From assembly GCF_001293165.1 (NCBI RefSeq), contig NZ_CP010552.1, forward strand, positions 434,001 to 498,000: a stretch of DNA of 64,000 nt. The letters are read 5' to 3'. Numbering within the stretch: position 1 is the first letter of the stretch; each line of letters begins with the position of its first letter. Source of the DNA: Candidatus Thioglobus autotrophicus (GTDB lineage Bacteria; Pseudomonadota; Gammaproteobacteria; PS1; Pseudothioglobaceae). Below the pieces are notes generated by a model that saw only the letters and a program-made list of their open reading frames with translations, made no database searches and was not told where the DNA came from. The translations under genes were made by a program, and so were the position numbers. Below are positions 5,525 to 44,047 of the stretch, one piece after another.

Positions 5525-6682
5525 TTATAAGTCATAAAAAGTTTTTTTAAGAATTCCATTCAAATCAAAATTTTTAATCACTTTTACAACCATTTTACTT
5601 GACCCCCCGTCTCCATAAAGATTTTTAGTGTTATCAACTATATTTTGAAAGTCTTCAGAATATGACTTATCAAATGCACTATCAATGCTCTCTTTCGTAG
5701 GCAGGCAACTTATAACGCTATCCGCTTTAATACGTCCTTTTTGTCTATCACCTATATCAATAGTTGCAATTTTAAAACTTGGCGCCTCAAGCAAGCCACT
5801 AGAACTATTACCCACAACAGCATCCATAAACTGCAAAGCGCTAAGATAATTCAACTGCCCCATTGATGCAAAGGCAATAGTATTATTGTGCTTAGCAACA
5901 TAGTTATCTATCATACTGTTTATAATCCTCCCATCAGTATCACTATTAGCTTTTGTAAATATTATTTTTGTATTTTTTAACTCACTAATGGAGTCTAATA
6001 ACGCTTGAAACTGAGTTCCTGACGTGGAGTTTTCAAGAGTAACTGGATGAAATGTAACCAATATATTTTTCTGACCAAGTTCAAAATTAATAATATTTAC
6101 AAAATCAGATTTAGACAATAATTGTAACTTATTAATATTATCAATCCCTAAGCCGCCCACATTAAAAACTCTGCTTGGACACTCCCCTAATTGAATAATT
6201 CTATTTCTATACTCATCGGTAGCAGCAAAGTGTAAATGGCTCATCTTGGTTATTGAATGTCTAATATATTCATCAAATGCACCCTCAGTAGCCTCCCCAC
6301 CATGTAAATGTGCTACAGGTATTTTTGCAATCATTGCCGCACTCACCGCCGAGAAGATCTCAAAACGGTCACCTAGAACCACCAACAAATCTGGACGTAA
6401 GTCGGCAAATGCTTTAGAACATTCAGTTATGCCTATTCCCATAGACTTGCTAATCGCCAATTTACTATCAGACAAAAGCGATATATCTACTTTTTTATCA
6501 ATCGAAAAACCGTCTTTTTCAATCTGTTGGTAAGTATTGCCAAATTCTTCAAACAAGTGCATGCCAGTTGCAATAATTTGCAAATCTAAAGCGGTATCGG
6601 CATCAATTTCCTTCATTAGCCAATAAAGCAATCCGTATTCCGCCCTTGTTCCAGTAACAACGCAGATTTTTCTTTTGGTCAT
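5525..6682 (-). CDS. legG: Hydrolysing NDP-sugar 2-epimerase of legionaminic acid pathway (NeuC/LegG)
   Basis: 385 residues, the typical size of NeuC/LegG enzymes. The N-terminal CVVTGTRAEYGLLYWLM matches the family signature; LVVLGDRFEIFSA and the C-terminal GNSSSGLLEAPSF (UDP/GDP phosphate binding) follow. The enzyme hydrolyses the nucleotide and inverts C2, here probably turning a GDP-linked 2,4-diacetamido sugar into free 2,4-diacetamido-2,4,6-trideoxymannose for LegI. It overlaps legI by 4 bases. Specificity for the diacetamido sugar is inferred from LegB, LegC and LegH next to it. Confidence 0.87.
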   Translation of the reverse strand: MTKRKICVVTGTRAEYGLLYWLMKEIDADTALDLQIIATGMHLFEEFGNTYQQIEKDGFSIDKKVDISLLSDSKLAISKSMGIGITECSKAFADLRPDLLVVLGDRFEIFSAVSAAMIAKIPVAHLHGGEATEGAFDEYIRHSITKMSHLHFAATDEYRNRIIQLGECPSRVFNVGGLGIDNINKLQLLSKSDFVNIINFELGQKNILVTFHPVTLENSTSGTQFQALLDSISELKNTKIIFTKANSDTDGRIINSMIDNYVAKHNNTIAFASMGQLNYLSALQFMDAVVGNSSSGLLEAPSFKIATIDIGDRQKGRIKADSVISCLPTKESIDSAFDKSYSEDFQNIVDNTKNLYGDGGSSKMVVKVIKNFDLNGILKKTFYDL

Positions 6683-7674
6683 ATTAACTCATCTGTATTG
6701 TAGTCTTTAGAGGCAACTGTTCCTATAACTTCATCCCATTGCATCGGACTAATGCCACTTCCTGGCCTTTTAGTGGCTATATTTCCATCTGTTAACAAAT
6801 CGCCTTTTTTAATATTCTGACTGGCAATAATAGATTTTCTTGCAATCTCGATGTTGGCACTCTCGCTTGATGATGGTTTCTTCTTGCTACTACCTAGCGC
6901 TTTTTCAATATTCCTAATAGCATTTACCATCGCTTTCAATTCTTTCGGCTCTAATGATGCTTTATGGTCTGGGCCATCCATTGTTTTGTCCAACGTAAAA
7001 TGCTTTTCTATACATGAGGCGCCCATTGCTACAGCGGCTATATCTACTTCTATACCTAATGTGTGATCACTGTAGCCAACATTGACGTCAAATTCCTTAT
7101 GTATTGTCAACATTGCATTGAGATTTACATCTTCCATTGGTGTTGGATACATTGTATTTGCGTGTAATACTGTTATATTTTCTTTTAATGATCCTGAATT
7201 AATCAAAACATTTAATGCACTTTCAACCTCTTTAAGGCTTGACATACCTGTTGATAGTACAATCTGTTTATTTAATGAGCCAACATGCCTCAAATATGGC
7301 AAATTGGTAATTTCACCACTAGCTATTTTGAAAATTTGCATTCCTAAATCACTCAAGAGATTGATACTATCATGATCAAATGGTGTAGATAAAAACATTA
7401 TGTCTTTCTCTTGGCAATAAGCAATCAATTCCTTATGGGTTTCCATATCAAGCTCAAGCTTTTTTAGCATATCAAACTGAGATTCTGACGCATTGGTAGT
7501 TTGCTTTTGATATTCAGCCTTCTGAGTGTTTTTAGCTACTAAATTTTCAGCCTTGAAAGATTGAAATTTAACAGCATTAGCCCCAGAATTGGCGGCTACA
7601 TCAATTAATTGCTTTGCCAAATCAACTGAACCATTATGGTTAACACCAGCTTCTGCAATAATAAATACACTCAT
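6679..7674 (-). CDS. legI: Legionaminic acid synthase (NeuB family, SAF domain)
   Basis: 331 residues. A NeuB TIM barrel fills about residues 1-255 (IAEAGVNHNGS at the start, NAVKFQSF, FKIASGEITN, GYSDHT, CIEKHFTLD). A C-terminal SAF/antifreeze-like domain follows at about 275-331 (ARKSIIASQNIKKGDLLT). It condenses the six-carbon sugar from LegG with phosphoenolpyruvate. It has no cupin extension, unlike the second NeuB-like gene at 16396-17937. It overlaps legG and legH by 4 bases each. Confidence 0.9.
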   Translation of the reverse strand: MSVFIIAEAGVNHNGSVDLAKQLIDVAANSGANAVKFQSFKAENLVAKNTQKAEYQKQTTNASESQFDMLKKLELDMETHKELIAYCQEKDIMFLSTPFDHDSINLLSDLGMQIFKIASGEITNLPYLRHVGSLNKQIVLSTGMSSLKEVESALNVLINSGSLKENITVLHANTMYPTPMEDVNLNAMLTIHKEFDVNVGYSDHTLGIEVDIAAVAMGASCIEKHFTLDKTMDGPDHKASLEPKELKAMVNAIRNIEKALGSSKKKPSSSESANIEIARKSIIASQNIKKGDLLTDGNIATKRPGSGISPMQWDEVIGTVASKDYNTDELI

Positions 7675-8249
7675 GTCACCAAACTCCCGGCCTTAATAAA
7701 GCTATTCTTACCTATTGTGATTGACTCTTTAGTTATCACACCACTACCAATAAAACATCCAGATTGCACTATAACACCGCCATTGATGGTTGCATTTGTA
7801 GAAATGTGGCAATGCTTAGATATTTGGCAATCATGCTCAATTAATACTTTCGAATTTATAATACAATTATTGCCTATTGTGGCGCTCGCATTAATTAATG
7901 CATTATGCATTATAACAACACCATTGCCAATAGAGGCATGCGAAGATACGTAAGCATTCGGAGAGGCAATGCTAGGTAGTATGAATCCAGCATCGACAGC
8001 TAAATCAAATAATTTTATTCTAAGTGATGGTGATTTAATTTGCCCAGTTGTTACTAGGGCATAATTATATTTCTTTACCAAAATAGGCAAGTCAGAATCA
8101 TTACCAATAATAGGATACCCAAGGACATTGGATCCTAAAAGTTCTGGCTTATCCACTATTCCTGCAATCTTAAATCGGCCCTCTCTCTCAATAACATCAA
8201 TAACAGATTTACAGTGCCCACCACCCCCAATTAAGATTATCTCTTTCAT
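7671..8249 (-). CDS. legH: Sugar O/N-acyltransferase, PglD/NeuD/LegH type (left-handed beta-helix)
   Basis: 192 residues. The N-terminal Rossmann-like PglD domain starts IILIGGGGHCKSVID. From about residue 95 there are hexapeptide repeats of the left-handed beta-helix (ASIGNGVVIMHNALINASATIG and onward, with isoleucine/valine every six residues). LegH acetylates the 4-amino group made by LegC with acetyl-CoA, and the position between legC and legI fits. The catalytic His is probably the one in LIEHDCQI near residue 138. A NeuD-type O-acetyltransferase is the alternative. Confidence 0.82.
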   Translation of the reverse strand: MKEIILIGGGGHCKSVIDVIEREGRFKIAGIVDKPELLGSNVLGYPIIGNDSDLPILVKKYNYALVTTGQIKSPSLRIKLFDLAVDAGFILPSIASPNAYVSSHASIGNGVVIMHNALINASATIGNNCIINSKVLIEHDCQISKHCHISTNATINGGVIVQSGCFIGSGVITKESITIGKNSFIKAGSLVT

Positions 8250-9388
8250 GGAATCATCACGCTACTAGGAATATTAACAACTCTTTCCTCTAGCCATTCT
8301 GAACTAGTTAAATCACCACATTGTGCACTTTCAAACATTGGCAACTTATTCATTAATGTCCAAATTGGGCGAGTCATCACACCCTGTGAATTGGTCTCAT
8401 TCAAAAAATCATCTCGCTGTTGTTTATTATTAAGAATGATTGAATTAAGCCAATAGTTTGACTTTCCGCCTTTTGGCTCATTAACAAATCTATAATTACT
8501 ATTATTAAAAAACTTTGCATATATAGTTGCTAATTCATGCTTTCTAAGCAAGAAACTATCAAGATTTTCTAATTGAGCAACCAATAAAGCAGCATTTAAA
8601 TTTGGCATACGATAATTGTAACCAATCATATCGTGTGTGTAATCCCATTTATGTGGAACTTTTGCAGTTGTGGTTAAATGCTTGGCTTTTTTTGCCAACT
8701 CTTCATCATCTGTAATAATGCAACCACCGCCGCCAGCGGTAATAATTTTATTGCCGTTAAAGCTCATTATGCCCATTTGACCATATGTGCCAGTGTGTTT
8801 ATTTTTATACATACTACCTAGGCTCTCGGCTGCATCTTCTATTAAAACAATATGATATTTATCACAAATATCTTTAATTTCATCTATTCTGCAAGGATGC
8901 CCAAATGTGTGCATAGGAATACACGCCTTAATAACCTTACCAGTTTTACTGTTAATGCATTGCTGATTTTTGATCAATGTAAAATTCTCAAGGAATTCTT
9001 TTAACGCTGACGGAGATAAACCCATCGTATCCTTATCAACATCAATAAATATTGGTAGTGCGCCACAATAATTAATTGCATTACAAGTGGCAATAAATGT
9101 AAGCGGTTGGGTAATTACTTCATCATTTTTCCTAACATTAGCAATCAGTAAAGCGACGTGCAGAGCAGATGTACCATTGCTAGTTGCTATAGCATATTTA
9201 GCCCCAGTATATTTAGCAATCTCTTCTTCAAACCTATCTACAAATCTACCTACAGATGATACAAATGTTGAGTCTATGCATTCACTTAAATACCTTTTCT
9301 CATTACCGATAAATTTTGGCTCATGTAAAGGTATAGGGCTGTTTGTTTGGTAGAGATTCTGAATAAAATCAATTACACTATCAAACAT
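8246..9388 (-). CDS. legC: PLP-dependent NDP-4-keto sugar aminotransferase (DegT/DnrJ/EryC1 family)
   Basis: 380 residues. The PLP lysine is in SFNGNKIITAGGGGC, near residue 212. IATSNGTSALHVA near residue 67 and LIEDAAESLGS near residue 187 are the cofactor phosphate and ring-binding motifs. It should transfer an amino group from glutamate to the 4-keto sugar made by LegB. It overlaps legB by 8 bases and legH by 4 bases, in pathway order legB-legC-legH-legI-legG. Confidence 0.87.
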   Translation of the reverse strand: MFDSVIDFIQNLYQTNSPIPLHEPKFIGNEKRYLSECIDSTFVSSVGRFVDRFEEEIAKYTGAKYAIATSNGTSALHVALLIANVRKNDEVITQPLTFIATCNAINYCGALPIFIDVDKDTMGLSPSALKEFLENFTLIKNQQCINSKTGKVIKACIPMHTFGHPCRIDEIKDICDKYHIVLIEDAAESLGSMYKNKHTGTYGQMGIMSFNGNKIITAGGGGCIITDDEELAKKAKHLTTTAKVPHKWDYTHDMIGYNYRMPNLNAALLVAQLENLDSFLLRKHELATIYAKFFNNSNYRFVNEPKGGKSNYWLNSIILNNKQQRDDFLNETNSQGVMTRPIWTLMNKLPMFESAQCGDLTSSEWLEERVVNIPSSVMIP

Positions 9389-10361
9389 TGTATATTTCTG
9401 ATTTATATTTCTTGAGATTATCTGATTTTAAAATCCAATCGATGGTCCTTTGTAAACCTTCCCTAATGCCAACTTGTGACTTAAACCCAGTTAATTTTTT
9501 TATTTTAGAGTTGTCACACAAAAGTCGGAAAACTTCTGATTTTTCTGGTCTAATGCGCTGACTATCTACAATAAATTTAACATCACTATCCATTAACTCT
9601 TTAATCATATTCAGTGTATCGCCAATACTAATTTCAAAATTAGAACCTATGTTAACTACTTGACCGATAGACTCATCACACTCTGCAAGGGCTATAAATC
9701 CACGACAAGTATCATCTACATAATTAAAATCTCTTGTTGGTGTTATATCGCCCAACTTAATTTTTGTTGCACCATTTGCAATCTGTGTAATTATTGTAGG
9801 AATAACTGCCCTAGCAGACTGCCTAGGACCATAAGTATTAAATGGCCTTGCAATAGTAACGGGTAGATTGAATGCATTATAAAAACTCATTGCCATTGCA
9901 TCAGCTGCAATTTTTGTTGCACTGTATGGAGACTGGGGCTGCATTGGATGTTCTTCATCAATTGGTGTATATTGTGCTGTGCCATATACTTCGCTAGTTG
10001 AGGTGTGTATCACTCGTATATTACCTTGTTCTTTTGCTGCTTGGCAGATATTTAATGTCCCCTTGATGTTTGTATCTACATAGCTATCTGGAGCAACATA
10101 AGAGTAAGGAATAGCTATCAAAGCCGCGAGATGAAAAATAATATCTACATTTTTGGTAATAAATTTACAATAATGAGGATCTCTTATGTCACCAGTTAGT
10201 ACTTCAACTTTATCCTTGCATTCAATATCCTCAATCCAGCCCCAATTATTAAAAGAATTATATTGAGAAAGTGCTTTGATTTTATAGCCTTTTTTTACAA
10301 GCAGCTCAACAAGTCGTGAGCCTATAAAGCCATCTGCCCCAGTAACAAGCGCTATTGACAT
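9381..10361 (-). CDS. legB: NDP-sugar 4,6-dehydratase of legionaminic acid pathway (SDR family)
   Basis: 326 residues, an extended short-chain dehydrogenase. The NAD-binding VTGADGFIGSRLVE is at the N-terminus. The catalytic pair is in SPYSATKIAADAM (YxxxK, near residue 145), preceded by STSEVYGTA. It removes water from the NDP-GlcNAc-type sugar to give the 4-keto-6-deoxy intermediate used by LegC. It is the first pathway gene of this block. The partner enzymes PtmA and PtmF known from Campylobacter are not seen in the window. Confidence 0.85.
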   Translation of the reverse strand: MSIALVTGADGFIGSRLVELLVKKGYKIKALSQYNSFNNWGWIEDIECKDKVEVLTGDIRDPHYCKFITKNVDIIFHLAALIAIPYSYVAPDSYVDTNIKGTLNICQAAKEQGNIRVIHTSTSEVYGTAQYTPIDEEHPMQPQSPYSATKIAADAMAMSFYNAFNLPVTIARPFNTYGPRQSARAVIPTIITQIANGATKIKLGDITPTRDFNYVDDTCRGFIALAECDESIGQVVNIGSNFEISIGDTLNMIKELMDSDVKFIVDSQRIRPEKSEVFRLLCDNSKIKKLTGFKSQVGIREGLQRTIDWILKSDNLKKYKSEIYNV

Positions 10362-10397
10362 AACATTACTCCAATAAATAAATAAATTTTACATAGT

Positions 10398-10437
10398 TAA
10401 ACTTTATTTACTAAATAATTTTAATAAATAAAGTTTA
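10398..10437. repeat. 13-bp perfect inverted repeat between SGNH gene and legB
   Basis: The arms TAAACTTTATTTA (10398-10410) and TAAATAAAGTTTA (10425-10437) pair perfectly around a 14-base loop. The right arm contains the stop codon of the upstream SGNH-type gene. In RNA this is an almost pure A-U stem and no clear U-tract follows, so it is at best a weak attenuator, RNA-processing or stability element. It lies in the only larger gap (73 bases) of the leg operon. Confidence 0.5.
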
Positions 10438-11490
10438 TAAATTCCTAAATGCCTTATCACCAATTAGCTGCGCTATCACACGATTAGCATCAGGGGAGAA
10501 ATGTCCGCCACCACTGGCTACATAAGCATCATCTATATCAATTTTCTTGTATAAATCCAATGTAAGGTCAATGAAAGATATATCAGAGAACTTTAATGAT
10601 GCCTTTTCGATAACATTTTGATATTGGAGTACTTGGCCGCTAATACGCTTTTTTGCAACACCTTTATCAGCAAGCAATACAAACATAGGGCTAAAATTAT
10701 ATTTACCGCTAAGATTGTTAAACCTATTCATTAAAGCATAAAACAATTCACTTTCATCAGCCCAAATTTGAAGGCTATAGTTTTGAGCTTTATTCCCAAA
10801 TATGTTAAAACGGTTATTTTTAAAGTACTGATAATTACCATCCCACTTAGTCAGTATTTTTTTCTGCCTGTACAAATATTTTATCTCACCCTTGTTTTTA
10901 ACAGGGTTGGGTAAAAAAGATAGCTTGCCATTATCGTCAATATATGCTCGCGGCTTTACCCCAAAAATATTTCCTTTTTCCAGCCAGTGTTTATAAATAC
11001 TAACAGTTCTGGCCATTGTTGCAACGCAAACAATAATACATACAAAACTAGTTCTATCATTTTCTATACATCTTTCCAAACGCAATAAAGACTGATCTAA
11101 GCCATAATTTCCAACACCATAATTAGCACAATAGGTGTCATAAGTGTCGCCGAGTTGCCATGCAATGGTTTCATTATCACAAACCTCTCTACTCATTGCA
11201 AAAGAGTCACCATAAATTGAAAAGGTATTATTTTTTGTATTTTTAGATCGCGACGTAATGCGTGATCCAATTTTATCAATTGTCCAGAAAGGGGGGTCGC
11301 CTTTCAACACCCCCTTAGACACAGAGTCTTTTTTTTGCATTCCTGGTTTTGGACACCAGCCCAACTCAGCATCCCAAGTAGAAAACCTAGTAAGTTTATT
11401 GGAAGATACCTTGGGAAAATATCTAATATACCTAATGCCTTTCATGATCTTTTTAAATTTAAAGATAATGCTATCTATTAATTTAGTCAT
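10435..11490 (-). CDS. SGNH/GDSL hydrolase-like protein, possible sugar O-acyl enzyme
   Basis: 351 residues, no signal peptide. The SGNH pattern can be read in TFSIYGDSFAMS (block I GDS, near residue 91), the glycine/asparagine motif ANYGVGNYGLDQ (near 117) and the C-terminal GGGHFSPDANRVIA with its histidine (near 335). Stand-alone SGNH proteins in polysaccharide clusters usually add or remove acetyl groups. Lying between the leg genes and two glycosyltransferase-like genes suggests a glycan substrate, but neither direction nor substrate can be set from sequence. Confidence 0.6.
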   Translation of the reverse strand: MTKLIDSIIFKFKKIMKGIRYIRYFPKVSSNKLTRFSTWDAELGWCPKPGMQKKDSVSKGVLKGDPPFWTIDKIGSRITSRSKNTKNNTFSIYGDSFAMSREVCDNETIAWQLGDTYDTYCANYGVGNYGLDQSLLRLERCIENDRTSFVCIIVCVATMARTVSIYKHWLEKGNIFGVKPRAYIDDNGKLSFLPNPVKNKGEIKYLYRQKKILTKWDGNYQYFKNNRFNIFGNKAQNYSLQIWADESELFYALMNRFNNLSGKYNFSPMFVLLADKGVAKKRISGQVLQYQNVIEKASLKFSDISFIDLTLDLYKKIDIDDAYVASGGGHFSPDANRVIAQLIGDKAFRNL

Positions 11491-12855
11491 TTAATCTGAA
11501 TTTATATTGTCACAATATATATAGAATGTATTTCTTCCTACTGGTACACAAGTTACGTTTCTTTTTAATATGCCATTTTCATGCATGCATGAAAAATAAT
11601 TAGTCAGCTCCAAGGTGTTATCAATAATAAATTTTTTCCTTAAAGAGTGTCTCTCGTGTTTTTTTACTTTATTAAAAATAAAGTAGTCTTTTAATTTCCT
11701 AGTACTTGTGTAAAAGAATTTATTGAATTGATACCTATTATTAGAAATCTCCACACTATTCAAGTCAAAAAAAGATTTTGTTTGTACAGCTTCTAGAGAG
11801 CTCACTATGTCATTTAATGGTATTTTATCAGCAAGATAACCATCAAGATTCATCATAGACGGGTGAAATTCTGCTGGTGAAAATATACCATCCAGCAACT
11901 CATCTACATTAAAGGCAACTTTTGCAATTTTATCCACACTATTTAGTTTATATTGTGAGACTGAATTTGGTGTATATGCAATAGTGTTTTTTTTCATAAA
12001 TACCGCCTCTAATCCTGTAGTGCAGCAGTTGTGTATAACAGCTTTACTTGCAAGGATCCATGGTGCAACATCATAATCAGAACTTACTATAATATTATTA
12101 TAATCAGAAAAATATTCTTGAATTTTATCTATAGACTCAGATGGGTGTGGCCGAAACACAACCTTAACACCTCTTAAGCTAATTTCTTTTGCGACTTTTA
12201 CAAATTCTTTAAATAAAAACTCAACTATTTTAAAATTCTCTTCATAAATCTTAGTGTTCTCGCTTTTTTCGAGAAAGCCTGTTATTGTAAACATTTGTTT
12301 CACATGCTTCCTGTTTGTATAATATGCAAAATTACTTGACATTAATACAAATTCACCTAAATCTCTCTTTATATCATCTGACAACTTATCATAATATCCA
12401 TAATATCTATTCTTCCATAAATGTAATCTAGGATTTCCAACTGCAATAAATTTATCTTTCAGCTTTGGGTGTAGATTTAGCAGGTGATCGGCTTGCTTAT
12501 CTCCCCATAAAAGATGCCTATCTGGAAGTTTGATGGCATCAGACGGCATATCTACGCCTATATACTCATCCAAACTTCCAACAAGAACCCCTTCTTCTTC
12601 CATATTTACTATTTTATAACCACTGCTTATAAGGTCACTGAGTATGGTTACACTATTAGACCTTGCGCTTTTCCTTACAATAGTTGCTCTAGGTATTATT
12701 TTTCCTATAGATTTTATAGTGGCCCTCTCACCAATAAAAACATGATTTCCTCTTTCTGCAAGGAGTGCAGCTACTGTTAAGCGGGAAAGCAATTCTCTTT
12801 TCTTTATCTCAACATCAAAATAGAATACTGGTCTTTCTTGATTTTTATCCATCAT
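11491..12855 (-). CDS. Surface carbohydrate biosynthesis protein, GT-B-like
   Basis: 454 residues. It resembles the family annotated as surface carbohydrate biosynthesis protein, found in LPS and capsule loci. Features I can see: FYFDVEIKKRELLSRLTVA at the start, the mid-protein AVGNPRLHLWKNRYY, VVFRPHPSE near residue 230 and a nucleotide-sugar-like site SKAVIHNCCTTGLEAVFM near residue 275. The layout fits a GT-B transferase in the CDP-glycerol/CMP-sugar transferase style. Because it travels with CMP-nonulosonate genes, a nonulosonosyltransferase role is possible but unproved. It ends one base before the SGNH gene start. Confidence 0.6.
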   Translation of the reverse strand: MMDKNQERPVFYFDVEIKKRELLSRLTVAALLAERGNHVFIGERATIKSIGKIIPRATIVRKSARSNSVTILSDLISSGYKIVNMEEEGVLVGSLDEYIGVDMPSDAIKLPDRHLLWGDKQADHLLNLHPKLKDKFIAVGNPRLHLWKNRYYGYYDKLSDDIKRDLGEFVLMSSNFAYYTNRKHVKQMFTITGFLEKSENTKIYEENFKIVEFLFKEFVKVAKEISLRGVKVVFRPHPSESIDKIQEYFSDYNNIIVSSDYDVAPWILASKAVIHNCCTTGLEAVFMKKNTIAYTPNSVSQYKLNSVDKIAKVAFNVDELLDGIFSPAEFHPSMMNLDGYLADKIPLNDIVSSLEAVQTKSFFDLNSVEISNNRYQFNKFFYTSTRKLKDYFIFNKVKKHERHSLRKKFIIDNTLELTNYFSCMHENGILKRNVTCVPVGRNTFYIYCDNINSD

Positions 12856-12872
12856 AATAAGTAGGCATATTG

Positions 12873-14171
12873 TTAAATATTGTCTTCAATTAACTTCATT
12901 GTTCTTTTCCCAGAATTTCCATCACTATTGCCAAGTACGTCATCTAATAGCTTTTTTTTGCTACTAGACAGGTACTTATTAAATTTATTTTTCTCCAGAA
13001 GATCTAAAACAATATCTCGGAACTCGCTTGAACTCCTAGGTAAATATGCAGAATCGCCTAGATAAAATACGTAATCCTTGAGAGAATCTGGGACTTCTGA
13101 AAATAACTCTGGAGAAACCACTTGACAGCCTGAAGCAATAGCTTCGAAGACTGCTGTAGTATTAAAGCCAACCACAACACTGGCATCCAATAAAAGATCA
13201 TGACCGGCACCTTCATAAACTATTTTAATATTAGATGGAATGTTATCTGACAACAAACCTACCTGCATATCAGAAAATCCAGTTTTCGTCTTGAAAAAAA
13301 ACTCCACATTTGGCACTTCATGTGCAATTTTAACTAAATTTTGCGTGACTTTTTTGGCTAGACTTTCAAAGTCTTTAGTGAAACCCTCTCTATTTTGTTT
13401 TTGAGTAATTCCAGCTGTGTTCTGTATCATGAAATAAACAAGTTTAGGTTTTACCGGGTTTTGTCGATCTAATCGCTGGTTATGACTCAGATCCATCCTT
13501 GAGCAACCAGTAACAACAATCTCGCTTTGACTACTTAAACCTGAACCTAGTATAGCGTCCTTACTAATCTTGTTGTACACACTAATACCATCTATATGAA
13601 ACTTTAAATGCCTTTCTTTTAGAGTTGCCACCCACAACTTCGCAGATTTCTCAGTCATTAAGCATTCTTTATGAAGTAAAATAAAATTAATTTTATTTAA
13701 TTTTGACGCTTCTGCTAATTCTTTTTCTGGATAATATGTTATATTAAATTCTATAAATGCATCCAAGCCAAATAATTTTTTAAACCAAAAAAGCACCTTG
13801 GACAAATGTTTTCTATAAAGTAGTTTTTTATTCTTTATGTTCGAAGTTGCGCTACGATAATCAGAATCAGAAACAAGGCCATCTAGATAAATGGTAAATA
13901 TATGCTTAACTAAAGATCTTGGAAAAAGATAATATGAGTAAGGCTTAATAGAGTTTTTCAGTGCATTTTCCACATCTTCATTCCCTCCAAGTCTGGATAA
14001 AATAATTACTTTTTTCCCTTTAAATTTATAACCTCCATTATGTCTTTTTCTCAGGGAAATCCTCCAAATAATAGCTGTCAGAATGTGCAAATTTTTTCTG
14101 GTGGAAAATTTAGATATATAATCTCTACATGTAATTAAAAAAGATTTCATTTTGAAATTTAATGAAAACAT
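12873..14171 (-). CDS. Putative GT-B glycosyltransferase of unknown acceptor
   Basis: 432 residues. No firm family match. The C-terminal half has the pattern of a GT-B donor domain: EFFFKTKTG, then LLLDASVVVGFNTTAVFEAIASGCQVVSPE around residues 320-355, similar in layout to capsule transferases of the Kdo/sialic acid type. A possible alternative start is the Met at residue 8. It sits 5 bases after the second CMP-sugar synthetase gene, so it is a reasonable candidate transferase for that sugar. This is inference from context and fold pattern only. Confidence 0.5.
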   Translation of the reverse strand: MFSLNFKMKSFLITCRDYISKFSTRKNLHILTAIIWRISLRKRHNGGYKFKGKKVIILSRLGGNEDVENALKNSIKPYSYYLFPRSLVKHIFTIYLDGLVSDSDYRSATSNIKNKKLLYRKHLSKVLFWFKKLFGLDAFIEFNITYYPEKELAEASKLNKINFILLHKECLMTEKSAKLWVATLKERHLKFHIDGISVYNKISKDAILGSGLSSQSEIVVTGCSRMDLSHNQRLDRQNPVKPKLVYFMIQNTAGITQKQNREGFTKDFESLAKKVTQNLVKIAHEVPNVEFFFKTKTGFSDMQVGLLSDNIPSNIKIVYEGAGHDLLLDASVVVGFNTTAVFEAIASGCQVVSPELFSEVPDSLKDYVFYLGDSAYLPRSSSEFRDIVLDLLEKNKFNKYLSSSKKKLLDDVLGNSDGNSGKRTMKLIEDNI

Positions 14172-14176
14172 TGTGC

Positions 14177-14884
14177 TTATTGGTGGCTCCTTTTAAGTAT
14201 GTAATCAGCAAAATCTAAATCAAATTCAGTATCTATATTAACAAAATCACCTACACAAATAAGTGCTCCACTGTTATTTCCCATTGTCAATTTATCAGTC
14301 AATAAGGTTTCTCTCTTTATAACATAAACAAAACCGTTACGACTATATACAGGCTCTAATTGTTGTCTAGCAATGATTTCTTTTCCATTTACATCATAAT
14401 AGTCAAGCTTTTTACCTGTAACTGTCAATTGTTTCAATGGGTGACACTTACTATCAGCTTCAGATACCGTCCATACAGAATCATAATTTTCATTAACAAG
14501 CATCTCTATAGAATCCACAATATGTTTTTTTGTTCTAAACGGTGATGTTGGTTGAAGCATAACCACTACATCATATTTTTTTTTATCCTGTCGCTCCATT
14601 TCTTTAAGAGCGTGCGTTAAAACTTGTAAGTCAGATACCCTGTCGCCAGATAACACCTCTGGCCGCCTAAATGGAGCATCGGCGCCACCCTTGATTGCCG
14701 CCTTTGCTATTTCCTCATTATCTGTCGAAACAACAACTCTATCTAAAAAATCTACAGACAATGCAACTCGAGAAGCTATTTCCACAATTGGTACATCGCC
14801 AAGTTTCTTTAAATTTTTAAGGGGTATGCCTTTACTACCCCCTCTCGCTGGGATAACAGTCAAAATATTTAAATTATTAATCAT
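14177..14884 (-). CDS. Second acylneuraminate cytidylyltransferase (CMP-nonulosonate synthetase)
   Basis: 235 residues, NeuA family: TVIPARGGSKGIPLKN at residues 9-24, VMLQPTSPFRTKKH near 108 and a late VNIDTEFDLDFA acidic motif. It is clearly different from LegF at 1101-1838, so it probably activates a different acid, the product of the NeuB-cupin synthase at 16396-17937. The start codon overlaps the stop of the (broken) methyltransferase frame as ATGA, which indicates translational coupling within the second module. Confidence 0.82.
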   Translation of the reverse strand: MINNLNILTVIPARGGSKGIPLKNLKKLGDVPIVEIASRVALSVDFLDRVVVSTDNEEIAKAAIKGGADAPFRRPEVLSGDRVSDLQVLTHALKEMERQDKKKYDVVVMLQPTSPFRTKKHIVDSIEMLVNENYDSVWTVSEADSKCHPLKQLTVTGKKLDYYDVNGKEIIARQQLEPVYSRNGFVYVIKRETLLTDKLTMGNNSGALICVGDFVNIDTEFDLDFADYILKRSHQ

Positions 14885-15771
14885 TCTTCTACCATTAATT
14901 CCATATATATATTGTCACTTTGTTTATTTTTTTCTAAAGAAGCTTTCCAAAATGCATCTTGCATATCGTCAATGCCTTCCATAGATAATTTCCCCTTTGG
15001 CTTTCCATCTCTCAACCAATATAGCATATTTGCCATGCCATATCTATGAATAAATCTAACGTTAGCAACTCTAAATCCAGCAAACTCTGCACATTTAACA
15101 AGGCTGTATTCATCAAAATACCATCAATGCTGCGTCCTATAAAAGAATTGATAAAATTTATCTTTTAACAAGGTTGTCAATACGTCATTTCGATTGGGTG
15201 TACTTATCAATAACCGGCCTCCAGGCCTGATTAATTCTTTTATTTGTTTGAGAAATTCTACTGGATTTTTAACATGTTCAATTACTTGAATAGAAAATCC
15301 ATAATCTATCGTTTCTTTCTCATTTTTTATAGCTTCAGACAAACTTGGGTAGACTTTATGGCCACGATTAGATAACAACTCTAAATACGGAGCACATGGC
15401 TCTATTCCTAGTTGATTAGAGCTTACATTTTTTAACATGTCTAACAAGCTTCCGGCACCACAACCCACGTCAAGAACATTTGCACCTCTTAAAGATTTTG
15501 GGAAAAAAGCTTCTAGGGTGTAATGCTGCATCTCATCTTGTTCAATAACTGACTGATCACCTTCTAGACTCTCCTTTAATTTCCTTCTGTACTGGCCAGT
15601 TTCATAAAATTCATCTGAAATGCAATCATCCTCTCTCAATCTTTGCACTTTACAACCAGTACATTCATAAATTATTGCAGAACTCTTACACCTTCCATAA
15701 GCTCCATCTCTTATGTCACCAGTATATATTTCGTTGAATTTTTCACCACAAATTTCACACACATTATTCAT
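14881..15771 (-). pseudogene. SAM-dependent methyltransferase interrupted by an in-frame TGA
   Basis: The frame from ATG 15771 gives 215 residues, then TGA at 15124-15126, then 80 more codons in the same frame to a TGA at 14881-14883, with no frameshift. The N-terminus has a zinc-like cysteine set (CEICGEKF, YECTGCKVQR). The SAM site VLDVGCGAGSLLDML is near residue 98, and RPGGRLLISTPNRND follows. The tail (WYFDEYSLVKCAEFAGFRV and onward) continues the methyltransferase C-terminus seen in this family. A usual arginine codon CGA changed to TGA at the stop would explain the sequence. The full frame would overlap the next gene as ATGA, which supports it being one original gene. A sequencing error or readthrough is possible. 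Confidence 0.75.
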
Positions 15772-16403
15772 AATTTAAGCTCTTTAATCAGTTTTTTGAG
15801 TGTACCTAATAAAACTTCAGGTCTACTATTAAATCTATTCCAATTTTCTCCTATCCCAATAAACTTACAGCCTATTGATAGTGCTGCTTTTTGATCTACC
15901 TCACTATCACCTATATATGCAACTTCTGATAAAGAATAATCACTCAAAAGAAGTATTGATTTCAAGTGATCTTTCTTACTGTCTGGAGACCCCATAACCC
16001 CATCAAATAATTCATTCCAGCCTCGCATATCTATAATTCTTTGGAGGGTATCTATGGGTGTAGCCGAACTCAAAAACACTTTAACTTTTCTTCTTTTTAA
16101 CTCTTTAAGGGTTTTTAACGCTCCAAGAATTTCAGGAGCATTATAAATTTTACGTTCACATATCTTTGTATACAAATCAGATAGGCATATTGCACTAATG
16201 GCAGACTTATGAGGTTTTTTAAGATTTCTAATTAAAGCATTAAAAACGCTATACCTATCACCAGAATCTGGCATAGAAAACAACTTGTCAAGTATTGAGT
16301 CTGCACCAATAATATCTTTAGTGACTTCGTAAAAAGCTCTTCTTTTTATTTCATTAGATTCAACTAACGTCCCGTCGAAGTCAAAAACAACACACTTAAT
16401 CAC
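15768..16403 (-). CDS. HAD-superfamily phosphatase, likely sugar phosphatase
   Basis: 211 residues. HAD motif I is VVFDFDGTLVE (residues 5-15) and motif II is VFLSSATP near residue 110. The lysine lies in the DSKKDHL region near 145, and motif IV is YIGDSEVDQKAA near 167. The helical cap lies between motifs I and II as in the phosphoglycolate/NanP-type class. It sits directly after the NeuB-cupin gene with an 8-base overlap. In KDN and animal sialic acid routes a HAD phosphatase removes the 9-phosphate after the synthase, so that role is plausible here, but it is inferred. Confidence 0.75.
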   Translation of the reverse strand: MIKCVVFDFDGTLVESNEIKRRAFYEVTKDIIGADSILDKLFSMPDSGDRYSVFNALIRNLKKPHKSAISAICLSDLYTKICERKIYNAPEILGALKTLKELKRRKVKVFLSSATPIDTLQRIIDMRGWNELFDGVMGSPDSKKDHLKSILLLSDYSLSEVAYIGDSEVDQKAALSIGCKFIGIGENWNRFNSRPEVLLGTLKKLIKELKL

Positions 16404-17937
16404 TTTTAACTAGTTCAAATCTACCCCAATTTTTCACTGCTGTCTTACGCTCACTTCGCTCAAGATCATTAATTTTTTTATCGTTATACACCGAATCATC
16501 ATTGTAATGTGTTGTTGAAACCTCTTCAACTATACAGCCATCTTTTGACCAAAATTCATGCCACACCCCTGGCTGAACTAATGCAGTTTCTCCAGGACTC
16601 ATCACTCTGTGGTGACCGTCTATTACACTTTCAAAAATGCCTGACAACACTTGAAATGTTTCTTCTTTGCGTTTATGAAAATGTGACGGATGCTTTTGCC
16701 CTGGAAGGACAAGAATTAATTTTTTACAATATTCACGGTTAATGCAATCAATAATCAATGCGCCCGTTTCTCTAAAATTTTCAGCACCGTAATGATGTGA
16801 AAATTCAACACCAAATTCACTATTAAGCACTATCGAAGCTTCATTTAACATGGCCTTAAATTCATGTATTGATTTTTTCAGGGCTCTGTTTTTTACATTT
16901 TTTGTAATTGTAATACTGTCTGGAAATATTGGCTCGTTAGTCTTGAACGATTTATTAATCACAACCCCTCCGTCAATCCAAGATTCACTAGATATTTGAC
17001 CGGGAACAAATGGCATTGCAAAATACACATCACTAATATCTAACAAAGAGCCCTCTTTTAAGCCTTTCTTTGCAAACACGCCTCTTTGCAGTCCTTCCAA
17101 TGACTTCTTTTCTATATCAGTGGTAGGCTTCTCTACGTCTTTTGTGTTTAACCCGCATAAAGCTTCTGCATATCTATATGCTTTAAACCAGATATCTAAT
17201 TGTTGTGGAGTAGACGAATATAAATTTAATTTGATATCGTCAGTCTCATATCCAACATGCCTTTCAAACATCTGAGCACCTTTGGCCATTGCAATTTGAA
17301 CAGGGGCAATTTCATCTTGATTTTCATGTGTAGACCAGCCAATGGTGTGGTTTTGATATCTATCTTTTAATGTGTCAATATGATTTAAATGGAAATCTTT
17401 AGTAGGTATTGGGTAAATTGAAACACAGTGCATCAATGCAAGCTCGTTGCCACGATGATCAAAGAAGCTTACAATATCATCAATATCACCTATAGCTAAG
17501 CCACCAGTAGATGCGATAATTGGCAGCATCGCCTGTGAAATTTCTTCTAATAAAGGCCAATCTTTAGCGGAACAACTAGCTACCTTAATAATATCAAATC
17601 CCATTTCTGAAATTATTGGAACTGATTCATTATCAAATGGCGTACACATAGTTAACATTTTTTCGTCTTTGACTGCATCAAATAATACACGCCATTCTTC
17701 TAACTTTAGCTGAGTTGAAAGAAATCTTGGAATATGAATATTATCACTACCTTCTACATGCTCTGGATGAATAAAAGTATCGTATTGACGAAACTGAAAC
17801 TTGATTGCTGCACGTATATTGTGTTTTCGAACCATTTTTCCACACTCTTTAATAATCTTTAGGCCATGCTCAACACTGCCCTGGTGATTATTTGCCAAAT
17901 CTAAAACAAACAGATTGTTAAAATCAAAACTACTCAT
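16396..17937 (-). CDS. NeuB-family nonulosonate synthase fused to a C-terminal cupin
   Basis: 513 residues, far longer than ordinary NeuB (about 330-350). Residues about 1-260 form the NeuB barrel (LDLANNHQGSVEHGL, AAIKFQFRQYD, IKVASCSAKDW, IGWSTHENQ, MFERHVG). Residues about 285-345 resemble the SAF domain (QRGVFAKKGLKEGSLL). Residues about 400-490 form a cupin with metal ligands in HPSHFHKRKEETF and GVWHEFW. It should join phosphoenolpyruvate to a six-carbon sugar. The cupin may bind, isomerise or position the sugar. No matching 2-epimerase gene is in this module, so the substrate may be a hexose or hexose phosphate. Confidence 0.82.
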   Translation of the reverse strand: MSSFDFNNLFVLDLANNHQGSVEHGLKIIKECGKMVRKHNIRAAIKFQFRQYDTFIHPEHVEGSDNIHIPRFLSTQLKLEEWRVLFDAVKDEKMLTMCTPFDNESVPIISEMGFDIIKVASCSAKDWPLLEEISQAMLPIIASTGGLAIGDIDDIVSFFDHRGNELALMHCVSIYPIPTKDFHLNHIDTLKDRYQNHTIGWSTHENQDEIAPVQIAMAKGAQMFERHVGYETDDIKLNLYSSTPQQLDIWFKAYRYAEALCGLNTKDVEKPTTDIEKKSLEGLQRGVFAKKGLKEGSLLDISDVYFAMPFVPGQISSESWIDGGVVINKSFKTNEPIFPDSITITKNVKNRALKKSIHEFKAMLNEASIVLNSEFGVEFSHHYGAENFRETGALIIDCINREYCKKLILVLPGQKHPSHFHKRKEETFQVLSGIFESVIDGHHRVMSPGETALVQPGVWHEFWSKDGCIVEEVSTTHYNDDSVYNDKKINDLERSERKTAVKNWGRFELVKSD

Positions 17938-17960
17938 TACTTCCCCTTCTAAATGATTAA

Positions 17961-19064
17961 TTATTTCAATAATGTAAGAGCTTCTATTTTATAGCCTTTG
18001 CTATAATCAATAGCTACAGGGCAACTATTCTGCTCTGACATATGTGCTGCAGATATAACCAGCATTGTATCAAGTCCACGCTCTAAGGATATTGGGGAAT
18101 CCTTACTATTTCCTTCTTTTAATGCTATTTCTATGTGTTGCATTTCTTGAAAAAAATCATCCGCCCTTGTTTTGGTAATTTCAGTTGTTGACTTCTCACC
18201 ATCGTTTGAAGATACAATAACCGTATCAGTTCCTGGCTTATTACCACAATGCCACTCTACATACCCGTCGCTACACTGTGCACGAGCCCATTTTCTAGTT
18301 GGCTGAGTTACAACATCCTGAACCACTCTACCAATTACACCTTTTTCTGTGCGAAATTGCAATAAACATATGCTGTCATAATTCACCACACCATCTTTCA
18401 CGTATTCCATATTTGCGGATACTTCTACAATCCTGCCTATATCAGATTGTTGCGCAAAACTTTGCCAAAGGTTGATTGCGTGAGAATGTTCGCCACAAGC
18501 TCCGCCACCTTTTTCCCAATATCCAAGATATGTATCTGCAGGTCCATCTAACCAAGGATGAGCGGCAAATATTCCGCCCCAATACTCACGAAACTCAACA
18601 TCTAATGTTTGAACATTTCCTACTTCTTTATTCTCTAACAAACTTGACATTTTAATTGCTGATTTACTAATAGCATGATCGTACCCAACAAAAACTGAGC
18701 AATTTGCTGCTTTTGCCTCATCAAATAACTCTTGTGCCCCTTGTAAATCTGGTGAACATAGTGGCTTCTCCACCAAAACAACCTTTGCTCCTTCTTTAAC
18801 TGCAGATCTGGCTAGCTCCATATGACTATCTGGGGGTGTTCCAATAATGATAAAATCATAAACACCCCTTGGAACCTCATCAAGATTATAAAGACCTATT
18901 TGGTCATCCCATTTTCCATATCTCGCAGGATAAATGTCATTTTTTGTTCTCTCTAAGGCATCTGGATCAATATCGCATATATCAACATTCCACCCCATAC
19001 GTCTTGATGCCTGAGCTAAGTGATTTCCAATTGATCCTGCACCATATATTTTTATATTTTTCAT
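17961..19064 (-). CDS. Gfo/Idh/MocA-family NAD(P)-dependent sugar oxidoreductase
   Basis: 367 residues. The Rossmann motif IYGAGSIGNHLAQA is at residues 5-18, the EKPL active-site motif (VVLVEKPLCSPD) near residue 97, and a GGGACGEHSHAINLW segment near residue 190 holds the likely catalytic histidine. The family oxidises or reduces sugar hydroxyls or keto groups in free or nucleotide-linked sugars. It is the first gene of the long operon, 23 bases upstream of the NeuB-cupin gene. It may prepare or modify that enzyme's substrate or product. Substrate unknown. Confidence 0.78.
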   Translation of the reverse strand: MKNIKIYGAGSIGNHLAQASRRMGWNVDICDIDPDALERTKNDIYPARYGKWDDQIGLYNLDEVPRGVYDFIIIGTPPDSHMELARSAVKEGAKVVLVEKPLCSPDLQGAQELFDEAKAANCSVFVGYDHAISKSAIKMSSLLENKEVGNVQTLDVEFREYWGGIFAAHPWLDGPADTYLGYWEKGGGACGEHSHAINLWQSFAQQSDIGRIVEVSANMEYVKDGVVNYDSICLLQFRTEKGVIGRVVQDVVTQPTRKWARAQCSDGYVEWHCGNKPGTDTVIVSSNDGEKSTTEITKTRADDFFQEMQHIEIALKEGNSKDSPISLERGLDTMLVISAAHMSEQNSCPVAIDYSKGYKIEALTLLK

Positions 19065-30398: not shown

Positions 30399-31138
30399 GG
30401 GTCATGACAACTTAAGCGACTCTTTTCTAAACATTCCAAGCAAAACTTTATAAATATTTTGCTTGCGATTATTAAATCTAAATTCGCATTCTTTTAAGTG
30501 TAAATTAAACATACTTTTATCCATTCCTTTAAACTTTACCAATCTATTTTTAGCATAACCCCAGAATGATTCAATTCCATTAATATGTGAATTACCTCTG
30601 GCAAATTCATTCTTACTATGATGCACTCTAAAGTGCTTCTTATAATCAAAATCTACAAGCCCATTATACCCGCGCCATCCATCTGAATGAATAACGCTAT
30701 CAATACTAGTCTTACCCTTGATAATCCTTTGCAGGGTGGCGCTACTACAGTCTGGAACTATTTCAGTGTACACTTGATCGCCACGTTTCAATAAACCAAA
30801 TACTATTGTTTTACCCCTGGCACCACGGCCGCGTTTTCCGCGGACGCGCCGTGCGCCAAAATAACTTTCGTCAACTTCAATCTGACCCACTAAAGGATCA
30901 GATTGAAGCAAAGATAACTCTAAAATTCTAAGTCTAATAGCAGTTAAATATTTGTTAATTGTTTGCCTGCTTAAACTTGTTAAATGAGAGATTTGAGTTG
31001 CACTCGAATCCTCAGAAAACAACAAAATTATTTGCCTAAATTTGGCCTCTGAAATACGTGAACGAATCACATACTTGTTTTTTACTTTCATGACGGTACT
31101 TTAACAGGTTTTTAAACATGCTTAAGTTGTCATGACCC
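30399..31138 (-). mobile_element. Intact IS1595-family insertion sequence, 740 bp
   Basis: Perfect 19-bp terminal inverted repeats: GGGTCATGACAACTTAAGC at 30399-30417 and its complement at 31120-31138. The element is flanked by an identical 8-bp target duplication, TTATTTTT (30391-30398 and 31139-31146), the size expected for IS1595 elements. One transposase gene fills it; its stop codon lies inside the left repeat. The first base of the stop codon of the gene at 31146 is the last base of the right duplication, so the stop was kept. Exact repeats suggest recent transposition. Confidence 0.93.
30402..31091 (-). CDS. IS1595-family (ISXO2-like) transposase
   Basis: 229 residues. A helix-turn-helix (SATQISHLTSLSRQTINKYL) spans residues about 31-50. 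The DDE-type catalytic domain has IEVDESYFGARRVRGKRGRG (first Asp near residue 74), VIHSDGWRGYN (second Asp near 138) and HINGIESFWGYAK (Glu/Asn region near 174). The N-terminal zinc ribbon found in many IS1595 transposases is not seen, so this is the short form. The frame is intact from end to end, so the element may be active. Confidence 0.93.
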   Translation of the reverse strand: MKVKNKYVIRSRISEAKFRQIILLFSEDSSATQISHLTSLSRQTINKYLTAIRLRILELSLLQSDPLVGQIEVDESYFGARRVRGKRGRGARGKTIVFGLLKRGDQVYTEIVPDCSSATLQRIIKGKTSIDSVIHSDGWRGYNGLVDFDYKKHFRVHHSKNEFARGNSHINGIESFWGYAKNRLVKFKGMDKSMFNLHLKECEFRFNNRKQNIYKVLLGMFRKESLKLS

Positions 31139-42640: not shown

Positions 42641-44047
42641 CTATGCTCGCTCATAGTCATCATCAATACGAATAATATCATCCTCACCTAAATAACTACC
42701 TGTTTGTATTTCAATAATTTCTAACGGTGTGTCTTCAATATTTTCTAGACGATGCACTTTACCAAGAGAAATATAAGTAGACTGATTTTCAATTAGTTGG
42801 AAAGTTTTTTCTCCACAAGTCACTTGAGCCTTGCCTTTTACAACTACCCAGTGTTCTGAACGGTGGTTATGCTTTTGTAGAGACAACTTTTGACCTGGAT
42901 TAACCAGAATTCGCTTCACTTGAAAGCCCTCACCACGATCAATTGAATCATAATAACCCCAAGGCCTAAAGATTTTTCTATGTTGGTCGGACTCTAATCG
43001 GCCACTTTTTTTGATTTTCTCAACGATATTTTTAACATCTTGTGCATGCTCTTTATTAGTTACCAAAACTGCATCTTGTGTATCCACTACAATCAAATCA
43101 GACAATCCTATTACAGACACCAAACGATTAGATGTACTATGAACGTATGTATCGCTTACTTTATCCAAGATAACATCACCTACAACCAAGTTATCATCAT
43201 TATCCTTAACTTGAGAATCCCACAACGCTGTCCAAGACCCTACATCGTTCCAATTAGCATCTAAAATAACCATAGATGCGTTTTTAGTTTTTTCCATTAC
43301 GGCATAGTCAATCGACTGACTTGGGCATTTTAAAAACTCTTGTTCATTCAACCTAATAAAATCCAAGTCATAGAATTCTGTTTGGCATGACTTTTGGCAT
43401 GCACTAAGAATTTCTGGCTCATATTTTTCTAGCTCACTTAAATATACTGATGCTTTAAACATGAACATGCCACTATTCCAAAAATACCCTCCAGAATCAA
43501 CATATTTTTTTGCAGTTTTATAGTCTGGTTTTTCTACAAATTCATCAATATCATAATAATTCTTATTTTTAGAAATGTTAGCTTTAATATAGCCATATCC
43601 TGTTTCAATTTTATTAGGTGCAATACCAAATGTTACCAACTTATTTTGTTCCGCCTGTTTTGTCGCAAGCGCAATTGCTTGATGAAATTTATCCATATCT
43701 TGAATTAAATGATCTGCTGATAATACTAACAAAATAGCGTCTTCACTTTCTTTAATAGACTTAAGTGCAGCTAATGCAATTGCTGGCGCAGTATTCCTAC
43801 CAACAGGTTCCAAAATAATATTTTTAGGCTCCTTATTAATTTTACGAAGCTGCTCAGCTGCCAAAAACCTATGTTCCTCATTGCAAATTATAAGCGGATT
43901 TTCGATAGATTCTGGCAGCCTAAGAACTGCTTCTTGAAATAATGTAGTCTTACCCATTAATTCAATAAACTGCTTAGGATGCAATTTTCTTGACAAAGGC
44001 CAGAGTCTCGTACCACTTCCACCTGAAAGTATGACTGGGATAATCAT
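42641..44047 (-). CDS. manC: Mannose-1-phosphate guanylyltransferase / mannose-6-phosphate isomerase (type II)
   Basis: 468 residues. The GDP-mannose pyrophosphorylase domain is at residues 1-350 (VILSGGSGTRLWPLSRK, LHPKQFIEL, ILEPVGRNTAPAIALAA near 80, FVEKPD near 170). The cupin-like mannose-6-phosphate isomerase domain is at about 355-468 (FRPWGYYDSID, QKLSLQKHNHRSEHWVVV). It makes GDP-mannose from fructose 6-phosphate together with a phosphomannomutase. No manB/algC-like gene and no GDP-mannose dehydratase is in the window, so those steps must be encoded elsewhere. Confidence 0.92.
   Translation of the reverse strand: MIIPVILSGGSGTRLWPLSRKLHPKQFIELMGKTTLFQEAVLRLPESIENPLIICNEEHRFLAAEQLRKINKEPKNIILEPVGRNTAPAIALAALKSIKESEDAILLVLSADHLIQDMDKFHQAIALATKQAEQNKLVTFGIAPNKIETGYGYIKANISKNKNYYDIDEFVEKPDYKTAKKYVDSGGYFWNSGMFMFKASVYLSELEKYEPEILSACQKSCQTEFYDLDFIRLNEQEFLKCPSQSIDYAVMEKTKNASMVILDANWNDVGSWTALWDSQVKDNDDNLVVGDVILDKVSDTYVHSTSNRLVSVIGLSDLIVVDTQDAVLVTNKEHAQDVKNIVEKIKKSGRLESDQHRKIFRPWGYYDSIDRGEGFQVKRILVNPGQKLSLQKHNHRSEHWVVVKGKAQVTCGEKTFQLIENQSTYISLGKVHRLENIEDTPLEIIEIQTGSYLGEDDIIRIDDDYERA

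Follow-up and report, generated by a model that had tools for sequence, protein, structure and literature searches.

Organization of the locus

We analyzed a 64,000-nucleotide stretch of Candidatus Thioglobus autotrophicus (bases 434001 to 498000 of the single-contig 1.51 Mb genome; hereafter, the window) and focused on five minus-strand genes at positions 14177 to 19064 that surround a fusion of a NeuB-type synthase with a cupin domain. Open reading frames together with Pfam and NCBIfam scans confirmed the five genes of this module in the order given by an initial annotation of the same DNA, and the families assigned there agree with Pfam (Table 1). The intergenic gaps are, from 5' to 3', +23, -8, -4 and -4 bases, indicating that the genes are tightly coupled. 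As also annotated initially, the phosphatase gene directly follows the synthase gene, overlapping it by 8 bases, and the methyltransferase gene is broken, in this case by one in-frame TGA.

The module opens a single run of 19 minus-strand genes that starts at 19064, ends at 119 and has no gap larger than 73 bases. The same run contains, after three intervening genes, a legionaminic acid (Leg) set consisting of LegB, LegC, NeuD, NeuB and NeuC (10361-5525), with NCBIfam scores above the cut-offs for LegB (510.5/475 bits), LegC (565.7/420), NeuB (509.7/399.65) and NeuC (482.8/235.9). The description of the module as a coupled segment separate from the legionaminic set was thus right as to the coupling but not as to the separation. 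Similarly, a hydrolysing 2-epimerase is absent from the module, as had been noted, but not from the gene run, since NeuC lies further along it at 5525-6682.

Table 1. Genes and domains of the module and the two genes that follow it
Feature	Position	Strand	Basis or remark
Gfo/Idh/MocA oxidoreductase	17961..19064	-	PF01408 2.5e-12, PF22725 4.8e-07; first module gene
NeuB + SAF + D-lyxose/D-mannose-isomerase-type cupin fusion (predicted), 513 amino acids	16396..17937	-	Pfam, AlphaFold
NeuB barrel + SAF, residues 1-345	16903..17937	-	Nearest solved structure 3g8r
Isomerase-type cupin tail (predicted), residues 346-513	16396..16902	-	Structural matches, residue alignment, conservation
HAD-family phosphatase, GTG start	15768..16403	-	Pfam HAD_2
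S-adenosylmethionine (SAM) methyltransferase, interrupted; open part 15124-15771	14881..15771	-	Pfam Methyltransf_23
Cytidine monophosphate (CMP)-ulosonic-acid synthetase, NeuA/PseF type	14177..14884	-	CTP_transf_3; PseF 132 bits
Candidate glycosyltransferase	12873..14171	-	Weak TIGR04396, 42.2 bits vs cut-off 125
Candidate glycosyltransferase	11491..12855	-	TIGR04396 surface carbohydrate biosynthesis protein, 229.7 bits vs cut-off 125

The NeuB part of the fusion lacks the arginine that places an N-acetyl group

Both parts of the fusion protein were recognized by Pfam (NeuB, E value of 9.1e-39; Cupin_2, 7.1e-12; Lyx_isomer, 1e-10) and by an AlphaFold model of the full chain (mean predicted local distance difference test score [pLDDT], 93.2), in good agreement with the proposal that the module is centered on a NeuB-cupin synthase. 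The NeuB domain (PF03102) scored 133.8 bits against a gathering cut-off of 22.1. Residues 1 to 345 were closest to 3g8r, the Chromobacterium violaceum "SpsE" (Z score of 39.7, root mean square deviation of 1.4 over 335 residues, 39% identity), and the model aligned up to residue 343-344 with full-length 3g8r and 4ipj, placing an SAF domain after the barrel. The likeness to 3g8r concerns the NeuB-SAF part, the solved chain of 350 residues having no cupin.

Conservation was followed in 86 fusion rows (84 distinct), comprising the best 80 relatives described below, the window protein and 5 proteins from other genomes. K46, H204 and H227, which we take to be the phosphoenolpyruvate (PEP)/metal residues of the NeuB barrel (Lys and two His), were kept in 86/86 rows and are shared with the NeuB of the window's own Leg set, to which the NeuB part is 24% identical. 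The NeuB part stayed below the equivalog cut-offs of both NeuB_NnaB (117.8 vs 399.65) and PseI (106.7 vs 340.25). It belongs to the same family as the NeuB, LegI and PseI synthases and has their shared barrel residues, but differs from them by the missing N-acetyl-placing Arg. In meningococcal NeuB, Arg314 is described as placing the N-acetyl group of N-acetylmannosamine (PMC6795526). The altered residues of the R314A and R314K chains (4ipi and 4ipj) align with residue 308 of the fusion, which thus marks the equivalent position. This residue, in the SAF domain, was Met in 64, Phe in 13 and Ile in 9 of the 86 rows and Arg in none; in the Leg NeuB of the window, the position is Arg. The lack of this Arg in every fusion supports the earlier suggestion that a product of the type of 2-keto-3-deoxynonulosonic acid (KDN) fits better than one of the N-acetylneuraminic acid (Neu5Ac) type. 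R50 and R71 were invariant in 86/86 rows, and we infer that they would bind the phosphate of the substrate. Outside the window, the genome contains a third match to the NeuB family (G000:C1:414574-415488; 26% identity, E value of 2.5e-9), and the cell may therefore make a third ulosonic acid.

The cupin tail resembles D-lyxose isomerases

A model of the tail only reached a pLDDT of 94.2. D-Lyxose isomerases headed the structural ranking (Z scores of 16.8-19.2), followed by L-ribose isomerases (14.5-15.4), archaeal cupin phosphomannose isomerases (12.5-12.9) and other cupins (12.3 or less), among the matches listed, which were the best 50 of 999 aligned chains. With Foldseek, the first ten places all went to D-lyxose isomerases. 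By profile E value, quercetin dioxygenase was the best match, but only over 46-52 residues, and a generic or quercetinase-like cupin was rejected because D-lyxose isomerases clearly head the structural ranking. In Pfam, Lyx_isomer scored 41.6 bits on the tail against a gathering cut-off of 20.8, and it matched 52/52 scanned fusion tails with an E value of 0.001 or better. The tail failed the NCBIfam equivalog for D-lyxose/D-mannose isomerase (NF051472, 29.5 vs a cut-off of 350) and is thus a distant relative, not one to be filed as a D-lyxose isomerase, although it may function in the same way.

The relatives of the tail are manganese-dependent enzymes. Three D-lyxose ketol-isomerases, YdaE (2y0o), TsLI (7nzo-7nzq) and Z5688 (3kmh, 3mpb), match its fold over most of its length and share seven active-site residues with it, but they are stand-alone enzymes with 23-27% identity to the tail by structural alignment. 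For the Thermofilum D-lyxose isomerase, the sugar is described as being bound by K62, H75, H77, K86, E88, H143, E156 and D163, and the manganese as being held by H75, H77, E88 and H143 (PMC8378251). In an alignment to the solved chain, with the published numbering fitted by spacing, the first seven of these residues correspond to K406, H419, H421, K424, E426, H460 and E472 of the fusion. All seven were conserved in 86/86 fusion rows, except for H419, which was found in 85/86. H419, H421, E426 and H460 form the predicted manganese site, and the tail appears to have the residues needed for an isomerase. Judged from sequence and model, it is of the D-lyxose/D-mannose isomerase type, an identity that is new here. 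The initial annotation held that the cupin adds a step to the pathway. A cupin of this type would most simply supply the substrate, and a tailoring step is not required.

Genes adjoining the fusion

The Gfo/Idh oxidoreductase belongs to a subfamily of its own, characterized by E99-K100-P101 and a GGGA.GEHSH motif, with E192-H193-S194-H195 invariant (30/30). It exceeded no cut-off of a curated NCBIfam equivalog and has no close solved relative, the best chain giving only 39.3 bits; the nearest solved structure, glucose-fructose oxidoreductase, was tied with many others. The phosphatase matched HAD_2/PGP-like models and has conserved D8, D10, T115, K143, D166 and D170. In the methyltransferase gene, the frame runs on past the TGA at 15124-15126 to a stop at 14881-14883, and the stretch beyond the first stop still aligns to homologues. 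A frameshift was considered and ruled out in favor of the single in-frame TGA.

The CMP synthetase scored 132 bits with PseF, below the cut-off of 205.7; Kdo (3-deoxy-D-manno-octulosonic acid) cytidylyltransferase models reached at most 54.2 bits, and the closest solved chains were CMP-Neu5Ac synthetases. Two genes of the TIGR04396/BFO_1060 type (11491-12855 and 12873-14171) come right after the CMP synthetase gene, the nearer one starting 5 bases past it. Relatives of the 11491-12855 gene were found near the fusion in 18/80 loci. The two products are possible ulosonic-acid transferases.

The fusion is widespread and, in this branch, linked to the same neighbors

A profile scan of a GTDB-based collection of 84,980 species genomes yielded at least 527 confirmed relatives, the best 80 of which were used for the locus counts. 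All of these were full-length fusions with 49-65% identity in their best segment, and by record title they came from 12 named phyla, with 2 unassigned. Genes were counted as neighbors if they lay on the strand of the fusion and no more than 6.5 kb from it. A Gfo/Idh relative with at least 40% identity was present in 74/80 loci, directly upstream in 63 of the 73 with enough upstream DNA, and a CMP synthetase at the same threshold was present in 57/80. HAD matches of any identity occurred in 52/80 loci (directly downstream in 43/70) and methyltransferase matches of any identity in 27/80. After thinning to 58 sequences with less than 80% identity, Gfo/Idh was directly upstream in 43/52 and HAD directly downstream in 28/54 loci. 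As a control, the Leg-set genes NeuC, LegC, NeuB2 and PtmG were near the fusion in 3, 4, 3 and 2 of the 80 loci, respectively; LegB, which has a common dehydratase fold, gave 19/80 by weak matches and 2/80 at 40% identity. The recurrence of related sets in distant phyla indicates that the gene set is more than chance. A lack of conservation of the neighbors in other genomes had been named beforehand as a refutation; instead, they are conserved together in these 80 loci. Since the loci are those of the nearest relatives, the linkage is a feature of this branch.

In a Gemmatimonadales genome, NeuB, cupin and HAD form a triple fusion in one chain of 760 residues (L074:7962-10244). This is in agreement with the view that the phosphatase is tied to the synthase. 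Two loci of one Bacteroidota genome (L079 and L081) combine CMP synthetase, fusion and HAD but yielded no relative of Gfo/Idh, and represent a minimal KDN-like set; their CMP synthetase is closer to the other NeuA of the window. The fusion was not found in plasmids (tblastn at 1e-30), and a single-sequence scan of genome contigs confirmed 0/7 stretches. In a NeuB tree, the outgroup branch was too long for rooting, and two cupin-free rows stood on a branch of 2.5.

A proposed KDN-type pathway

On balance, and with modest confidence, we favor a CMP-ulosonic-acid pathway built around a bifunctional enzyme, with KDN or a KDN derivative as the end product. NeuB requires an aldose with a free aldehyde, and the family of the tail makes mannose or lyxose from ketoses. 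The tail would convert a ketose phosphate into an aldose phosphate, in the simplest case fructose-6-phosphate into mannose-6-phosphate, and the NeuB part of the same chain would join this aldose phosphate to PEP, giving a 3-deoxy-nonulosonate 9-phosphate of the KDN type (KDN-9-P). The adjoining HAD enzyme would then remove the phosphate to leave KDN, and the synthetase would convert KDN into CMP-KDN for transfer by the following glycosyltransferases. Gfo/Idh, and the methyltransferase where it is intact, would tailor the sugar or its precursor. We infer the reactions, their order, the phosphorylated substrate and the product from the domains, active-site residues and gene linkage observed above.

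That the product of the synthase would be phosphorylated is suggested by the phosphatase that follows the synthase and is fused to it in one lineage. Nine carbons are favored because the synthetase is NeuA/PseF-like rather than KdsB-like. Gfo/Idh may act on either the precursor or the product, by oxidation or epimerisation; such a step is where a new sugar could come from, and what is made may then be a derivative or stereoisomer of KDN. Most likely, the system is a KDN-type variant of the NeuB-type nonulosonate pathways and not a categorically new one. The initial annotation proposed a second ulosonic-acid module resembling the KDN route with a possibly new product: such a module is indeed present, while any newness of the product would rest on the Gfo/Idh step.

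The KDN route of Bacteroides thetaiotaomicron consists of a synthase, a HAD phosphatase and a cytidylyltransferase, all separate enzymes, with no 2-epimerase, and its phosphatase is a small capless HAD. The module shares with it the synthase, the phosphatase, the CMP synthetase and the lack of a 2-epimerase but differs in its isomerase tail, its Gfo/Idh enzyme and its HAD_2/PGP-like phosphatase. Another likeness is found in the capsular KL1/KL2 loci of Serratia marcescens, where a NeuB carrying an extra isomerase domain, the sugar-phosphate isomerase domain COG1082, is described beside a NeuA-type synthetase (PMC9000132). According to the same source, the capsule contains KDN, which is gone after deletion of the variable capsule region, and neuB mutants lose the capsule and show a 4-fold lower sialic-acid signal (PMC9000132). 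The passages considered here mention no Gfo/Idh or HAD and assign the isomerase domain no role (PMC9000132). In our reading, which is not taken from those passages, two unrelated isomerase domains attached to NeuB would fit one purpose, the local supply of the aldose. The COG1082 fold differs from the cupin fold.

Observations at odds with the proposed pathway

A number of observations weigh against the KDN-type pathway. Among the members of the fusion group, none was found whose product is known. Plain KDN does not require Gfo/Idh, although this is the most constant neighbor. Only 2/80 HAD and 6/80 methyltransferase matches reach 40% identity, and both are common families. Thermofilum D163 aligns only near N479-D481 of the tail, where D481 is invariant, and the lyxose isomerases characterized in PMC8378251 were, as described there, assayed on free sugars. 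A type II phosphomannose isomerase/guanylyltransferase is encoded at 42641-44047, so mannose-6-phosphate would be available without the tail. Type I mannose-6-phosphate isomerase is absent from the genome; the idea that the tail is there because the genome has no mannose-6-phosphate isomerase was rejected, the type II enzyme being present. At one locus (L086:6840-9524), the gene directly preceding the fusion encodes a NeuC-type 2-epimerase, and neither Gfo/Idh nor HAD gave a match in the neighborhood; this fusion retains the active-site residues of the others, and the exception may point to a different product. In Serratia, the drop in the neuB mutant was measured by a general sialic-acid assay, and Neu5Ac is reported from these strains in addition to KDN (PMC9000132), so their NeuB need not be strict for KDN.

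Less selected samples gave a further set of such observations. A match was found in 6 of 369 genomes of a class sample (4 full-length) and in 13 of 398 genomes of a phylum sample (12 full-length), the window's own genome being included in both; in the window's family, the fusion occurred in 3/83 genomes. Outside the window's genome, this amounted to 15 full-length fusions, 14 from the class and phylum samples and one (G007) from the family search; a fusion followed directly by HAD on a contig of 3.8 kb (G023, L005) was left out. The Gfo/Idh cassette accompanied only 4 of the 15, and 3 of these 4 loci are contigs that are also among the 80. Eight of the 15 adjoin a thiamine-diphosphate enzyme of the acetolactate synthase family (L092 [7209-13775], L093, L117 and L119-L123). 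Five of these eight have RfbH, and three of the five also have RfbF and RfbG; RfbF, RfbG and RfbH are CDP (cytidine diphosphate)-3,6-dideoxy sugar genes. The cupin-free relatives L096, L097 and L124 also adjoin a thiamine-diphosphate enzyme. The remaining three fusions (L115, L116 and L118), all from one genus, have neither neighbor, and all have Gln at 419. The fusion thus occurs in at least two settings.

The two settings differ at the metal site. Residue 419 was Gln in 9 of the 11 fusions without the cassette, including 6 of the 8 beside the thiamine-diphosphate enzyme, compared to 1 of the 86 rows, and that single row is among the 9. A complete metal site thus goes with the Gfo/Idh-HAD-CMP synthetase cassette, a point in favor of the proposed pathway. 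In the setting with the thiamine-diphosphate enzyme, the purpose might be to provide a 2-keto acid for branched-chain sugar formation.

Alternative explanations

The constancy of Gfo/Idh could also mean that it acts before the synthase. Gfo/Idh and the cupin would then remodel a hexose phosphate by oxidation, enolisation or epimerisation, and reduction, and NeuB would receive an aldose other than mannose-6-phosphate, leading to a new KDN stereoisomer or keto form. The position of Gfo/Idh as the most constant partner (74/80 loci), directly upstream of the fusion (63/73) and first in the operon, fits this idea, as does its separate subfamily with invariant EHSH 192-195 (30/30) and a best solved match of 39.3 bits. 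In kanosamine synthesis, NtdC and NtdB form such a pair, a Gfo/Idh enzyme that uses a hexose 6-phosphate and an accompanying HAD phosphatase. However, L079 and L081 keep fusion and HAD without a Gfo/Idh match, so that the synthase does not strictly need Gfo/Idh, and we consider such remodelling unlikely. We regard it as less probable still that the tail acts on a pentose, turning D-xylulose-5-phosphate into D-lyxose-5-phosphate, from which NeuB would form an eight-carbon 3-deoxy-octulosonate, an isomer of Kdo. The family is named for D-lyxose, and the Thermofilum enzyme is reported to have less than 2% activity on mannose, but other lyxose isomerases are described as accepting mannose, the pocket of the Bacillus subtilis enzyme being more open (PMC8378251). 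In addition, the CMP synthetase is nearer to NeuA/PseF (132 bits) than to the KdsB type (54.2 bits or less).

It is also conceivable that the tail has lost its enzymatic function and serves as a sensor for sugars or in a structural role, an ordinary N-acylated nonulosonate being made by the NeuB part from precursors of the Leg set. The Leg genes do lie in the same gene run, the cupin superfamily is described as including non-enzymes (PMC8378251), and Gln replaces the first metal His in 9/11 fusions outside the Gfo/Idh cassette. This explanation has little probability in our view: the metal and acid/base residues of the tail are kept in this branch, the N-acetyl-placing Arg is missing in 86/86 fusions, and few of the 80 loci have relatives of LegC (4), NeuC (3) or NeuB2 (3) near the fusion.

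Significance and further observations

With the KDN-type pathway, the annotation "NeuB with a cupin" becomes a testable two-reaction enzyme, and the fusion cassette can be put forward as a candidate marker of KDN-type sugars in genome sequences; its carriers span at least 12 named phyla and include many uncultured bacteria from metagenomes. If the oxidoreductase step holds true, the nonulosonic acids could gain a new member. In the open-licence literature, we found no link of NeuB or sialic acid synthase to a cupin or a lyxose isomerase; publication elsewhere is possible. We also put forward, tentatively and as somewhat improbable, a broader proposal: a CMP-sugar pathway, widespread and apparently not described before, in which a single polypeptide, in one lineage carrying the phosphatase too, would make its own aldose from a ketose phosphate and join it to PEP, and Gfo/Idh would lead to a novel ulosonic acid (a KDN stereoisomer, keto-KDN or another tailored form). 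The sister branch beside the thiamine-diphosphate enzyme, in some loci with RfbF, RfbG and RfbH, may employ the same synthase for long 2-keto acids that serve as donors for branched-chain sugars.

Elsewhere in the window, the translation of 30402-31091, within the glycosyltransferase region, looks like a transposase of the insertion sequence (IS) type.

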